This document shows positions 111 to 16,096 of a stretch of 64,000 nucleotides of DNA, piece after piece. Position 1 is the stretch's first letter. Each line of letters opens with the position of its first letter. The position numbers and the translations under genes are program-made. The stretch covers positions 1 to 64,000 of the forward strand of contig CACYKF010000001.1 in NCBI GenBank assembly GCA_902774905.1, given 5' to 3'. The notes under the pieces are model-generated. The model saw only the letters and a program-made list of their open reading frames with translations, had not been told where the DNA came from and made no database searches. This DNA comes from an uncultured bacterium. Its GTDB lineage: Bacteria > Cyanobacteriota > Vampirovibrionia > Gastranaerophilales > Gastranaerophilaceae.

Positions 111-247
111 CCTGTCCGGAGGACCCTGCGGAGCATATATTTATATACCGATAATATTTTTTATGTATAAAACATGTAACTGATTGCTTGACATGTGCAA
201 AAATGACATGAGTTTGTTGTATTATTTATAATTTTGTATTGAACTAT

Positions 248-268
248 TTACAATTCACTATTCACTTA
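248..268. repeat. Solo arm of the GTGAATN-heptamer repeat
   Basis: The tract reads TTACAATTCACTATTCACTTA, the same ATTCAC heptamer array that forms the right arm of the elements at 1950-2053, 12251-12701 and 15952-16096. No partner arm is visible nearby, so this is a solo arm or a decayed copy. Confidence 0.5.
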
Positions 269-786: not shown

Positions 787-1949
787 GAGAATTTTTATCA
801 GACAAAGTTCAAAATATCAAGCCGTCAGGGATAAGAAAATTTTTTGACATCGTAAGCGAAATGAAAGATGCAATTTCGCTTGGTGTCGGTGAACCTGATT
901 TTGAAACGCCATGGCATATTAGAGATGAAGGCATTTATGCTTTTGAAAAAGGCAGAACTTTTTATACTTCAAATTCAGGCTTGTTACCTTTAAGACAAGA
1001 AATTTCAAACTATATCAAAAGAACACAAGGTACTTGTTACAACCCGCAGAAAGAAATACTTGTCACTGTAGGAGGTTCAGAAGCCATTGATATTGGTTTA
1101 AGAGCGCTGATAAATGATGGGGACGAGGTTATTATTCCTCAGCCGTCTTATGTTTCTTATGCGCCTTGTTCATATCTTGCGGGCGGTAAAAATGTTTTTA
1201 TCAATTTACAAGCGGGAAATGAATTTCGTTTGACTCCGCAGGAACTTGAAAATGCAATTACCGACAAAACAAAGGTTTTGGTTTTGCCTTATCCTAATAA
1301 TCCGACAGGTGCAATCATGGAGAGAAAAAATCTTGAAGAAATTGCACAGGTTATTAAAAAGCACGATATTTTTGTGATTTCTGATGAAATTTATTCCGAA
1401 TTAACCTACAAAGATAAACATGTTTCAATTGTAAGCCTTGACGGAATGAAAGAGCGTACGCTTCTTATAAACGGATTTTCTAAAAGTTATGCAATGACAG
1501 GGTGGCGTTTAGGTTATTGCTGCGGCCCTGATTGGCTTATTAAGCAAATGACAAAAATTCATCAGTATGCAATTATGTGCGCCCCGACAATTAGTCAATA
1601 TGCTGCGGTTGAGGCTCTCAAAAACGGCGATGATGATGTCAAAATGATGCGTGAATCTTATAATCAGCGCAGAAGATTTTTGATGGATGCGTTTAAAAAA
1701 ATGAGATTGGAATGTTTTGAGCCTTACGGTGCTTTTTATGTATTCCCTTGCATAAAAGAATTTGGGATGACAAGCGAAGAATTTGCGACAAAATTTTTGC
1801 AGGAGGAAAAAGTTGCCGCAGTTCCGGGGACTGCATTTGGCGACAGCGGAGAAGGATATTTGAGAATATCCTATGCTTATTCGTTAGAAAAACTCAAAAT
1901 TGCAATGGAAAGACTTGAAAGGTTTGTTAATAAATTGCGTCAATCTTGA
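783..1949 (+). CDS. PLP-dependent class I/II aminotransferase
   Basis: A 388-residue fold-type I aminotransferase. The substrate loop NNPTGAI, the Asp of SDEIYSEL that binds the pyridine nitrogen, the PLP-lysine motif NGFSKSYAMTGWR and the C-terminal arginine region YLRISYA are all present. It most likely moves amino groups between aspartate or alanine and 2-oxo acids; the exact substrate is uncertain. The GTG start overlaps the TGA of the Lrp gene. The stop codon directly abuts the repeat element at 1950. Confidence 0.9.
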   Translation: MREFLSDKVQNIKPSGIRKFFDIVSEMKDAISLGVGEPDFETPWHIRDEGIYAFEKGRTFYTSNSGLLPLRQEISNYIKRTQGTCYNPQKEILVTVGGSEAIDIGLRALINDGDEVIIPQPSYVSYAPCSYLAGGKNVFINLQAGNEFRLTPQELENAITDKTKVLVLPYPNNPTGAIMERKNLEEIAQVIKKHDIFVISDEIYSELTYKDKHVSIVSLDGMKERTLLINGFSKSYAMTGWRLGYCCGPDWLIKQMTKIHQYAIMCAPTISQYAAVEALKNGDDDVKMMRESYNQRRRFLMDAFKKMRLECFEPYGAFYVFPCIKEFGMTSEEFATKFLQEEKVAAVPGTAFGDSGEGYLRISYAYSLEKLKIAMERLERFVNKLRQS

Positions 1950-2053
1950 ATAGTGAATCGTGAATAGACCTTTACTTGTTTAAATGTTGTAAAATGTTCG
2001 ACAGCACCGTAAATGACAATTCACCATTCACGATTCACTATTCACTATTCACA
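1950..2053. mobile_element. ORF-less derivative of the four-helix-bundle element
   Basis: About 104 bp. The left arm contains GTGAATCGTGAATAGACC; the right arm is an array of ATTCAC heptamers in inverted orientation. On the minus strand the centre reads ELSFT, then VLSNILQHLNK and a stop. ELSFT resembles the arm-encoded ELSVT that precedes the gene at 12292-12639, and the rest resembles that gene's C-terminus (GLSKYLKNK). This fits an internally deleted copy that kept both ends. It fills the gap between the aminotransferase stop and the zupT stop. Confidence 0.6.
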
Positions 2054-11933: not shown

Positions 11934-12245
11934 TTACTTGTGATATTTTTGTTCCACAATTTCGAGCCACTTTGCGTGGTTGTAGTTTTTATAACTGTCA
12001 GCAAAATTTATAAGAGAAGTCACAAGTTTTCTTCCGCTGTCTGATTTCCCAACTATTAAATAATCGCCGTTTTCGTTTTGGCAATACAAAATTTCACGAT
12101 GAACAATTTTTTCGACATTATTTTTTGGGTTTTTATTTATCACCTGAAATAGCCATTTGTGCAAAAGTTCTAACGGCGTGGTTTTATGCGTCATCAGTTC
12201 GTTGTTGTATTTTTGTAAAAATTTTGCGTATTCTGTTAGTATCAT
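11934..12245 (-). CDS. Unknown 103-residue protein
   Basis: A compact alpha/beta-looking protein (NENGDYLIVGKSDSGRKLVTSL region) with no recognised family, signal peptide or membrane segment. Its start codon lies 5 bp from the left arm of the four-helix-bundle element at 12251, so that element has probably replaced or separated its original upstream region. A TATATT box adjoins the ATG, and no Shine-Dalgarno site is visible. Confidence 0.6.
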   Translation of the reverse strand: MILTEYAKFLQKYNNELMTHKTTPLELLHKWLFQVINKNPKNNVEKIVHREILYCQNENGDYLIVGKSDSGRKLVTSLINFADSYKNYNHAKWLEIVEQKYHK

Positions 12246-12250
12246 AATAT

Positions 12251-12701
12251 AGTGAAAAGTGAATTGTGAATAGTGAATAGACCGTTTAGGTTTATTTATT
12301 TTTTAAATATTTTGACAAGCCTATTAGCATTCGTTTTATTTCGTTACATTCTTCCATTATGTTATCATAAGATTTTATGTATCCCAAATTTTTTGAAATT
12401 ATAAGTTGTGTTTGTAATTCAGCCAAAGAACCAATTGCAATACTTATAAAGTTCAATGTTTCTTTGTCTGAAAATCTCGCGCATCCTTCTGCGATGTTTG
12501 AAGGAATCGAAATTGCGCATCGTTGCATTTGATTTTTTAAACCAAAATTTTCACTTTGCGGATATAATTTTGTAATGTCATAAATTTTTGTGACTAAATC
12601 TATCGATTTTTTCCAAACCTCTAAATCTTCGTGCTTCATTATCTTCTCCAATCCTGTAACCGACAATTCACAATTCACAATTCACTATTCACCATTCACT
12701 T
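12251..12701. mobile_element. Four-helix-bundle (S23/IVP) element with inverted heptamer arms
   Basis: A 451-bp unit. The left arm (12251-12284) is an array of GTGAATN heptamers ending GTGAATAGACC. The right arm (12661-12699) is the inverted array (ATTCACN repeats), preceded by CCTGTAACCGACAATTCAC. Between them lies one gene, the S23-like protein on the minus strand. Copies at 15952-16096 and 1950-2053 share both arms and inner edges but lack the gene. The arms could form a long stem, as in 23S rRNA intervening sequences that carry the same protein family. The right edge abuts the comF stop codon. Confidence 0.7.
12292..12639 (-). CDS. Four-helix-bundle protein, S23/23S rRNA IVP family
   Basis: 115 residues from the start at 12639, chosen for GGAGAAG 5 nt upstream and the family-typical beginning KHEDLEVWKKSIDL. 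A longer frame would begin inside the repeat arm. Family hallmarks are seen: RCAISIPSNIAEGCAR, FISIAIGSLAELQTQL and the C-terminal GLSKYLKN. Members occur inside 23S rRNA intervening sequences and, as bAvd, in diversity-generating retroelements, where they form basic oligomers that bind nucleic acid. Here the gene is the only cargo of an inverted-repeat element. Its function is unknown. Confidence 0.88.
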   Translation of the reverse strand: MKHEDLEVWKKSIDLVTKIYDITKLYPQSENFGLKNQMQRCAISIPSNIAEGCARFSDKETLNFISIAIGSLAELQTQLIISKNLGYIKSYDNIMEECNEIKRMLIGLSKYLKNK

Positions 12702-13344
12702 ATAAGGGTGTTGTTGTAGCGAAGCAAACAATATCATATATTTCTGCTTTGTTCAGTTCTCTAATCATCTCCTCAAAAGTTGAACCTGTTGTGCAAATAT
12801 CATCAATCAAAAGCAAGTGCTTATTTTCAATGAGTTTTGTTTTATCGACTTCAAATGCTTTATCCAGATTAACAAGCCTTTGAGATTTTTTTAGGTTATA
12901 TTGCGGTTTGGTATCTTTTACTCGCTTAATCAAACTTGTATTCAACTCAAAGCCGGTTAGTTTGGAAAGTTCTTCCCCCACTAAATCCATGTGATTGTAT
13001 TTGCGTTTCTTTTTACGCTTTGAGTAAATCGGAACGGGTACAATTTGAAAATCACCTTCAAGTCCTAACCTTTGCCAGTACTCATACATAAATTTTGCCA
13101 TGTAATATGCAAGGTCACTTTGGCGGTGGTATTTTATTCCTCGTATCATTTTTTGTAGATTTTTTGAATATTCCCCTGCGCAATAGATATTTATGCAGTT
13201 AAAAGTTCTGTTTACTTCGGCGGGTAAATGTTCAAGTGTGTCGTAACAATTTGAACACATTTTTACACACTCTTTTGATGAACCGCAAAAATAACACTTC
13301 TTTTTATAAATCCAGTCTAAAAGATTTTCAAAAAACTTGTTCAT
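12700..13344 (-). CDS. comF: ComF family amidophosphoribosyltransferase-like protein
   Basis: 214 residues. An N-terminal four-cysteine zinc finger (CYFCG near 18 and CSNC near 32) and a C-terminal type I phosphoribosyltransferase domain with the PRPP loop LLIDDICTTGST are present. ComF helps bring single-stranded DNA across the membrane during natural transformation in competent bacteria; other members act in DNA metabolism. An extended -10 (TGA-TAAAAT) ends 8 nt before the ATG and no ribosome site is seen. The stop codon touches the S23 element. Confidence 0.9.
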   Translation of the reverse strand: MNKFFENLLDWIYKKKCYFCGSSKECVKMCSNCYDTLEHLPAEVNRTFNCINIYCAGEYSKNLQKMIRGIKYHRQSDLAYYMAKFMYEYWQRLGLEGDFQIVPVPIYSKRKKKRKYNHMDLVGEELSKLTGFELNTSLIKRVKDTKPQYNLKKSQRLVNLDKAFEVDKTKLIENKHLLLIDDICTTGSTFEEMIRELNKAEIYDIVCFATTTPL

Positions 13345-13377: not shown

Positions 13378-13500
13378 GTCATGCCGTACTTTACAAAGGG
13401 AACAGCCGTAACAAAGTGAGGCTTGTGACCCTGTATCCGTCGGCAAAGCCGTTAGGTGATACGGCATCAATTCGTCATGCCGTACTTGATACGGCATCTA
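13378..13500. repeat. Cluster of palindromic repeats upstream of the GIY-YIG gene
   Basis: Several copies of a GTCATGCCGTACTT / GATACGGCAT type palindrome (13379-13394, 13473-13499) surround GTTAGGTGATACGGCATCA at 13451-13469. That 19-bp string recurs exactly at 13926-13944 downstream of the GIY-YIG gene. Confidence 0.7.
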
Positions 13501-13519: not shown

Positions 13520-13870
13520 ATGCAAGAAAAACAAAGTTACATCTATATTATGTCTAATTACACCCATACAACCTTTTATATTGGTGTAACTTCCAATTTA
13601 TACGGAAGAATGTTTCAGCATATAAATAAATTGGCAGATGGATTCACTGCGAAATACAATATAAATCAACTTCTATATTATGAAATATATTCTGATATTG
13701 AAACCGCAATAAACAGAGAAAAGAAACTAAAAAAATGGCGAAAGCAATGGAAGTGGGATTTAATTGATAAAGTTAATCCCGAAAGAAAAAATTTATATGT
13801 TGATGGTGAAATATTGCCTATAAATCAAGATTTAATACAGATCCCGCATCAAGTGCGGGATGACGCATAG
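13520..13870 (+). CDS. GIY-YIG family nuclease-like protein
   Basis: A 116-residue UvrC-type single-domain protein with the signature split as YIYIMS and FYIGVTSN (about 7-25), the conserved YGRMFQH helix, the catalytic-type Glu region YYEIYSDIETAINREKKLKKW, and a basic tail. The last nine residues (PHQVRDDA) are encoded by a palindromic repeat. The gene lies between repeat clusters and a 19-bp direct repeat. An extended -10 (TGT-TATTAT) ends 7 nt before the ATG, suggesting a leaderless mRNA. Its role, whether in repair or in repeat spread, is unknown. Confidence 0.85.
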   Translation: MQEKQSYIYIMSNYTHTTFYIGVTSNLYGRMFQHINKLADGFTAKYNINQLLYYEIYSDIETAINREKKLKKWRKQWKWDLIDKVNPERKNLYVDGEILPINQDLIQIPHQVRDDA

Positions 13871-15923: not shown

Positions 15924-15942
15924 GTTGGGCTGAAAGCCCAAC
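15924..15942. repeat. GTTGGGCT/AGCCCAAC palindrome before thiL
   Basis: An 8-bp inverted repeat with a GAA loop lies 13 bp upstream of the chosen thiL start. It is probably a further dispersed palindrome. Confidence 0.5.
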
Positions 15943-15951
15943 TTACATATT

Positions 15952-16096
15952 TGTGAATTGTAAATCGTGAATTGACCTTTACAAATTTATAGATGTTTAA
16001 ATATTTAATAAGCACTGATAACGACCATTCACAATTCACCATTCATTTATAAAACCCTGTGACCGACAATTCACTATTCACAATTCACGACTCACA
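15952..16096. mobile_element. ORF-less derivative of the four-helix-bundle element
   Basis: The left arm has GTGAATTG and CGTGAATTGACCTTTA. The right side has CCTGTGACCGACAATTCAC, matching the inner edge of the 12251-12701 element at 18 of 19 positions, then ATTCACN heptamers. A second block of ATTCAC heptamers lies inside. On the minus strand the central part encodes VLIKYLN, similar to the C-terminal IGLSKYLKN of the S23 protein. It fills the gap between thiL and the GGDEF gene and ends 2 bp from the latter's stop. Confidence 0.6.

Follow-up and report, generated by a model that had tools for sequence, protein, structure and literature searches.

Genes of the S23 or 'four helix bundle' family are spread across bacteria and have no accepted function, and the excess of heptamers in bacterial genomes is known but unexplained. 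The S23 ORF has been described within the intervening sequences (IVS) of 23S rRNA in Leptospira and Coxiella (PMC4990558). Heptameric simple repeats, GGGAATC among others, are on record from Xanthomonas, Nostoc and Calothrix (PMC4692102), and TAACTGA repeats from Beggiatoaceae (PMC4679880). Rehm et al. 2015 describe for the GGGAATC repeats of Xanthomonas a preference for four units, which they relate to G-quadruplexes, and 70–75 convergent pairs, and they see no general association of heptamers with mobile elements (PMC4692102).

The locus analysed here lies in a window of 64,000 nucleotides, the whole stretch of DNA under study, from the genome (G000, about 2 Mb) of an uncultured bacterium of the Gastranaerophilaceae. 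It consists of an S23 gene between inverted arrays of GTGAATN heptamers (Table 1). With the 23S rRNA IVS it shares the protein family, a single S23 ORF, similar in length, enclosed by complementary ends, and a sporadic distribution, IVS having been called selfish or parasitic. By contrast, the present elements lie outside rRNA and undergo no excision from it, their ends are arrays of 7–9 nt units, and gene-less derivatives are scattered over the genome. A siting in rRNA was ruled out for the window locus, which lies between comF and a small ORF, and for 60 further S23 loci, in which an Rfam scan found no rRNA. Avd and bAvd of diversity-generating retroelements (DGRs) have the same four-helix fold (TM about 0.81), but the present element contains neither template and variable repeats nor a reverse transcriptase, and its protein scores 30.4 bits against the bAvd Pfam family, below the 40-bit cut-off; RVT_1 has no match anywhere in the related genomes G015 and G030. 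As with MITEs, gene-less copies of about 105 bp with inverted ends are scattered intergenically alongside a rare gene-bearing relative. Unlike MITEs, the ends are tandem arrays with a free seventh base instead of one fixed inverted repeat, no known transposase family is involved, and the target duplication seems not to be constant. Terminal inverted repeats of the kind that define insertion sequences and MITEs are present, as inverted arrays plus a subterminal motif, and the element encodes no transposase with a known catalytic domain. As the element fails tests that define an IVS, an insertion sequence and a DGR, it was filed under none of the three. REP or BIME sequences are short palindromic repeats of intergenic regions, accompanied by one protein-coding relative, TnpA-REP, and the present elements resemble them in both respects; here, however, the protein is a four-helix bundle and not an HUH nuclease, and in many phyla the repeats enclose the gene. 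The heptameric simple repeats are alike in their seven-nucleotide units and, in Xanthomonas, in the four-unit preference and the many convergent pairs, but no link to S23 genes is drawn in the available text of PMC4692102 and PMC4679880. In Luteimonas (Xanthomonadaceae, L180), the arms around an S23 gene are built of GGGAATC units. No open-access paper linking S23 to heptamers, or describing S23 mobility outside rRNA, was found; subscription journals lay outside the search. IVS elements, Avd proteins, MITEs and heptameric repeats are each known.

The S23 gene at comF and its gene-less relatives

Table 1. Coordinates of the S23 element, its neighbours and the gene-less copies in the window
Feature	Position	Strand	Remarks
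Left arm	12252..12278	+	four GTGAATN heptamers, first unit GTGAAA
Left subterminal motif	12279..12290	+	AGACCGTTTAGG, immediately inside left arm
S23/IVP four-helix-bundle gene	12292..12639	-	115 aa, ATG start at 12639
Right subterminal motif	12653..12665	-	TGTCGGTTACAGG (minus-strand reading), immediately inside right arm
Right arm	12666..12699	-	five exact GTGAATN heptamers; end abuts comF stop codon (12700-12702)
comF	12700-13344	-	neighbour on right-arm side
Small ORF	11934-12245	-	neighbour on left-arm side, start at 12245
Gene-less copy	1939..2052	+	114 bp; present in G002, G015; absent at site in G016, G030
Gene-less copy, right end doubled	15953..16095	+	present in G002; absent at site in G015, G016
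Half copy	246..265	-	lone three-unit array, partner array lacking

The gene matches Pfam 23S_rRNA_IVP (PF05635; E=3.7e-39, above the cut-off) and NCBIfam TIGR02436 'four helix bundle protein' (E=1.1e-38), and the arms are complementary over inverted repeats of 22 nt (95%) and 38 nt (84%). Arm coordinates, complementarity and family matches confirm the preliminary description of inverted GTGAATN arrays around a single S23/IVP gene, and the arm does touch the comF stop codon, as stated there. The full gene-bearing element measures about 0.45 kb. A longer S23 ORF, from a GTG at 12678, was rejected: this GTG lies within the right arm. The true start is the conserved ATG at 12639-12637, with a GGAG ribosome-binding site upstream, and the orthologue in the sister genome G030 starts there too. 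Beside comF, among short dispersed repeats, lies a stand-alone GIY-YIG nuclease-domain ORF (13520-13870, E=9.1e-14), and a 77-bp segment between direct repeats of CGTCATGCCGTACTT (13392-13468) is missing from the sister genome G002.

At two mismatches or fewer, GTGAATNGTGAATNGTGAAT has 140 matches in G000, against none for the reversed-pattern control, and most of them fall in elements of about 90–115 bp. The search of the genome for arms with and without the gene, which the preliminary description had proposed, returned about 50 array loci: they are mostly gene-less elements of about 105 bp with ends like those of the S23 copy, and one, the copy at comF, holds the sole S23 gene of G000. A gene-less element reads (GTGAATN)4, AGACCTTTACA..., a small GTGC..GCAC hairpin, ...GATAACGACT, inverted (GTGAATN)4. 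The inner ends of the S23 copy (AGACCGTTTAGG and TGTCGGTTACAGG) closely resemble those of the gene-less copies, which carry AGACCTTTACA in place of the left AGACCGTTTAGG, and ends of the form AGACCKTTTA and GTCGKTT are common to both kinds. The length of GTGAATN arrays peaks at four units (51 of 83 arrays).

Other repeats accompany these elements. A dispersed hairpin repeat of another kind, GTTGGGCTTTCAGCCCAAC / GTTGGGGTAGAAACCCCAACTTAC, often adjoins the heptamer elements (window positions 15924-15950, and L062); at L062 a five-fold tandem block is made up of the two in alternation. Elsewhere in G000 (L047 453-1402, contig C2), two opposed heptamer arrays 0.95 kb apart surround small Xre-type regulator ORFs. 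One gene-less element is single in G000 and forms three tandem copies in G002 (L242 / L236), so that gene-less copies multiply locally too.

S23 genes, their arrays and the encoded protein in other phyla

Elements of gene-plus-arms layout, with a lineage-specific unit of 7–9 nt, occur around S23 genes in many bacterial phyla. The sample surveyed, picked regardless of flanks, comprised 80 named loci (by record title Bacteroidota, Geobacter and other Desulfobacterota, Betaproteobacteria, Acidobacteria, Planctomycetota, Nitrospirae, Clostridia, Gemmatimonadetes, candidate phyla and others) and 30 loci from the phylum of the window. A gene was counted as array-flanked if both sides had equal period, from 4 to 12 nt, and mutually complementary arms. 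Inverted same-period arrays surround 80 of 119 S23 genes (67%, mostly from other phyla) and only 6 of 253 control ORFs (2.4%) in the same loci (Fisher p=1e-43); mismatched flank pairs were positive in 60 of 1190 cases, and no array was called for one third of the 119 genes. Arms in no fixed relation to S23 genes elsewhere would have refuted the preliminary description, and these figures contradict that outcome. Periods were 7 (52 genes), 8 (23) and 9 (5), and none fell outside this range. The arms, of about 30 nt, end at a median of 32 nt before the S23 start and 8.5 nt after the stop.

Arm units follow the protein. They are alike in all six pairs of S23 proteins more than 70% identical, in 18% of pairs at 60–70% identity and in 1–3% below 50%. 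Around the S23 genes of other members of the window's genus, the inverted arrays have quite different units, for instance of TAAGACCG-, GATAAGTTT- and GGCGATAA-type. Among 44 genomes counted, GTGAYTRA arrays occur in 10 of 26 that bear S23 versus 1 of 18 that lack it, and GGGAATA arrays are most numerous in G133 and G235, where GGGAATA is also the unit of the S23 arms; the reversed-pattern control is unfit for this unit, the reverse of which nearly matches itself. A universal subterminal motif was ruled out: GWYCNTTAC is found inside the arms in 9 of 42 cases in the window's own order-level group (0.03 when shuffled) and in 0 of 154 in other phyla. A search for S23 in phages gave no match.

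The AlphaFold model of the window S23 protein (pLDDT 97) has as its significant structure matches S23 proteins (2gsc, TM 0.93; 2rld, TM 0.84), then phage Avd (4dwl and 8ub7). The PHROGs label for S23 is also Avd. The solved relatives 2gsc and 2rld contain five chains each, and a solved relative is a homopentamer according to PMC4990558, which cites Lin et al. 2006. Residues conserved at 97% or more in 117 proteins include Y19, E29, Q36, R39, S43, N47, E50 and E73. Family searches returned S23/Avd-type families alone, and no known nuclease or recombinase motif or transposase domain in S23.

As RNA, seven of eight gene-less copies fold at z values of -4.3 to -8.0, the eighth at -1.6. The free seventh base, however, is matched between left and right arms in only 12 of 51 comparisons (shuffled mean 30%), which rules out a perfect-hairpin model: what is conserved is the heptamer unit rather than a perfect stem. 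A fixed unit with a free seventh base that is unmatched between arms, the four-unit preference, a pentameric relative and the co-divergence of unit and protein together suggest that an S23 ring recognises the array unit by unit.

Insertion sites in plasmids and sister species

Twenty-eight plasmids carry S23, and cyanobacterial conjugative plasmids provide filled and empty versions of one site. In a conjugation-gene region, the site is filled in Trichormus variabilis plasmid C and in a Scytonema plasmid; Aulosira laxa NIES-50, Nostoc carneum and Tolypothrix PCC 7601 have the matching region, 97-98% identical, without the element. The empty site reads AAAAAGTAATTAACAAATAA and the filled site AAAAAGTAATAAA[TCAGAATTCAGAAG ... 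GTTCTTCTTT]GTAATTAACAAATAA, with a duplication of the target GTAAT, or perhaps of GTAATTAA (GTAATTAA) with one change, that is, of 5-8 bp. At an unrelated site, Aulosira plasmid2 carries a related element that is 82% identical over 416 bp, first to last repeat unit; relatives from Calothrix and Tolypothrix, 90-95% identical, have no insertion at this second site. The likeness of the two copies stops at the arms (exactly 416 bp, arm to arm), which together with the clean empty sites indicates that gene and arms suffice as the unit of insertion. Five further filled/empty pairs (Nostoc C052 vs C057; Nostoc ATCC 53789 vs C052; N. edaphicum, in the nrdB/nrdA gap, vs Calothrix; Pseudanabaena, in the cas6/cas4 gap, vs ABRG5-3; Calothrix brevissima vs Tolypothrix) have junctions with small replacements and no uniform duplication. 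The Trichormus site of Nostoc C052 (pC052_E, L355) holds a remnant made of the left arm and the start of S23, with the 3' part deleted.

In the window's genus, GTGAATN arrays occur only in a clade of four species: at one mismatch or fewer there are 97 matches in G000, 66 in G002, 22 in G015 and 15 in G030, and 0-1 in each of 32 other members. No S23 gene was found in G002 despite its 66 array matches, and most related genomes are without any. All three copies compared in the window, those at comF, 1939-2052 and 15953-16095, vary in presence between sister species, so that the comparison with sister strains proposed in the preliminary description does turn up empty sites. G000 and G030 have the comF element; G002, G015 and G016 do not.

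The copy at comF nevertheless looks old. Between G000 and G030, S23 has a dS of 1.31, similar to that of the neighbouring comF (1.58) and aminotransferase (1.10) genes, which rules out a fresh insertion and suggests vertical inheritance since the two species split. With a dN of 0.11 (dN/dS 0.08), the gene is under purifying selection. Given this age, losses, recombinational allele replacement or independent insertions are needed to account for the lack of the element in G002 and G015, which are closer relatives; the G002 intergenic stretch at comF resembles that of the outgroup G016, which argues against simple excision. Nearly all gene-less copies that can be compared with G002 are common to both genomes, and recent activity in this clade is therefore low.

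A probable minimal mobile element and competing explanations

The mobility of S23 elements is well supported. The preliminary description had proposed a mobile element with an S23 gene outside rRNA, and this part is borne out by the gene-less copies, the empty sites in sister species, the recurrence in many phyla and the plasmid insertions; its other part, in which the arms serve as a stem of RNA or DNA, holds only in so far as pairing is possible, the free base being unmatched. S23 genes outside rRNA are best read as members of a widespread class of minimal mobile elements that end in tandem-repeat arrays, and these ends are probably bound by the pentameric S23 protein. Quite likely, then, the window locus is a full copy of such an element (array, motif, S23, motif, inverted array), of a widespread class whose units are recognised by an S23 ring, with S23 or recruited host enzymes as the putative source of the chemistry. 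The ring would bind the arm units, perhaps one per subunit, and hold both ends together. Cutting and joining might be carried out by S23 itself, through the conserved residues listed above, or by host enzymes that it recruits, and insertion would be mostly into short intergenic gaps. Deletion of the S23 gene would leave the ~105-bp copies, spreading or persisting by themselves. A DNA intermediate is favoured, since no reverse transcriptase is detectable in many of the genomes that bear S23. Several points count against this reading: S23 has no known nuclease or recombinase motif, the target duplication seems not to be fixed (5-8 bp at a single plasmid site, and elsewhere either no duplication or small replacements), the comF copy is old, recent activity in the clade is low, G002 has arrays without S23, the S23 copies of G173 and G240 multiplied inside ordinary transposon ends, and one third of the S23 genes have no array call.

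A more sweeping version, to which I would give an even chance, is that S23/IVP proteins are the mobility proteins of a bacteria-wide class of minimal transposable elements with no known recombinase, that the ring reads a co-evolving tandem unit, that the bacterial excess of 7-nt repeats is largely their debris and that the 23S IVS is a side branch that landed in rRNA. The finding ties together two puzzles, as one class of minimal mobile element seems to account for the heptameric repeats, both as its ends and in its gene-less derivatives. If S23 does move these elements, this would be a new way of moving DNA, with no known nuclease or polymerase motif. A unit as short as about 420 bp, together with the known near-identical empty sites, puts direct experiment within reach.

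Alternatively, ordinary DDE transposases, working in trans or from ends that enclose the locus, could move S23 genes and heptamer arrays as cargo, with no role for S23 in mobility. Some S23 movement is indeed borrowed, since copies in two genomes multiplied inside ordinary transposon ends: ten in G173 (L305, L308-L316), 97-99% identical, lie inside the terminal inverted repeat ACTGAYGTTACGCA with 5-bp target duplications such as TAATA, and two in G240 lie inside GGCTCTTC..GAAGAGCC ends. The G173 family was accordingly rejected as direct proof of S23 transposition, its S23 genes being nested in the ends of another transposon. The duplication at the Trichormus/Scytonema site is DDE-like as well. 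As a general account, cargo is nonetheless unlikely: most S23 loci have no end sequence beyond the arms, the likeness of the two related plasmid copies is confined to the stretch from arm to arm, S23 is under purifying selection, and the units vary freely among lineages yet track the S23 protein, which a single transposase would not yield. In several of the ten G173 copies the S23 gene is broken by further array-bearing sequence.

Equally, S23, as a relative of Avd, might bring element RNA to a reverse transcriptase in trans for copying into new sites. The match to the Avd fold and the PHROGs name are consistent with this, as are the folding of the arms as RNA, the 3'-truncated copy in Nostoc C052 and the presence of reverse transcriptase in 11 of 20 S23-related genomes tested. 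I consider it improbable all the same: RVT_1 is unmatched in the other 9 of the 20 (some of them incomplete), among them the array-holding G015 and G030, which speaks against an obligatory reverse transcriptase, and neither a poly-A tail nor a regular target duplication is seen.

An immobile host RNA module, with the inverted arrays paired into a stem for insulating or processing the transcript in RNase III style and S23 as the binding protein, would suit the strong folding of the arms, the position of elements within operons (comF, nrdB-nrdA and cas6-cas4, for example) and the cutting of rRNA IVS elements by RNase III (PMC4990558). It is disfavoured by the empty sites, that is, by presence and absence at identical sites in 97-98% identical plasmids and in sister species, and with the degenerate base unmatched between arms and the gene missing from most related genomes it becomes very unlikely. 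That the arrays are slippage-prone simple repeats, for instance heptamers of G-quadruplex type, lying near S23 by chance or genome composition is scarcely credible, for although over-representation of heptameric repeats is known from bacteria, with Xanthomonas and Nostoc rich in them (PMC4692102), inverted arrays flank just 2.4% of other ORFs in the same loci, unit and period are equal on both sides, and AT-rich GTGAATN, without G-tracts for quadruplexes, has the same four-unit preference, so that quadruplexes need not be its cause.

Reading S23 loci as minimal mobile elements would explain odd genomic associations of the family. In two cyanobacterial plasmids (Pseudanabaena pPg_01, L351; Anabaena sp. 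90 pANA02, L363), an S23 element occupies the gap from cas6 to cas4 in a type I-D CRISPR operon. '23S rRNA IVP' is listed among CRISPR-associated candidates (PMC10910872), and such inserts may be the explanation for that entry.
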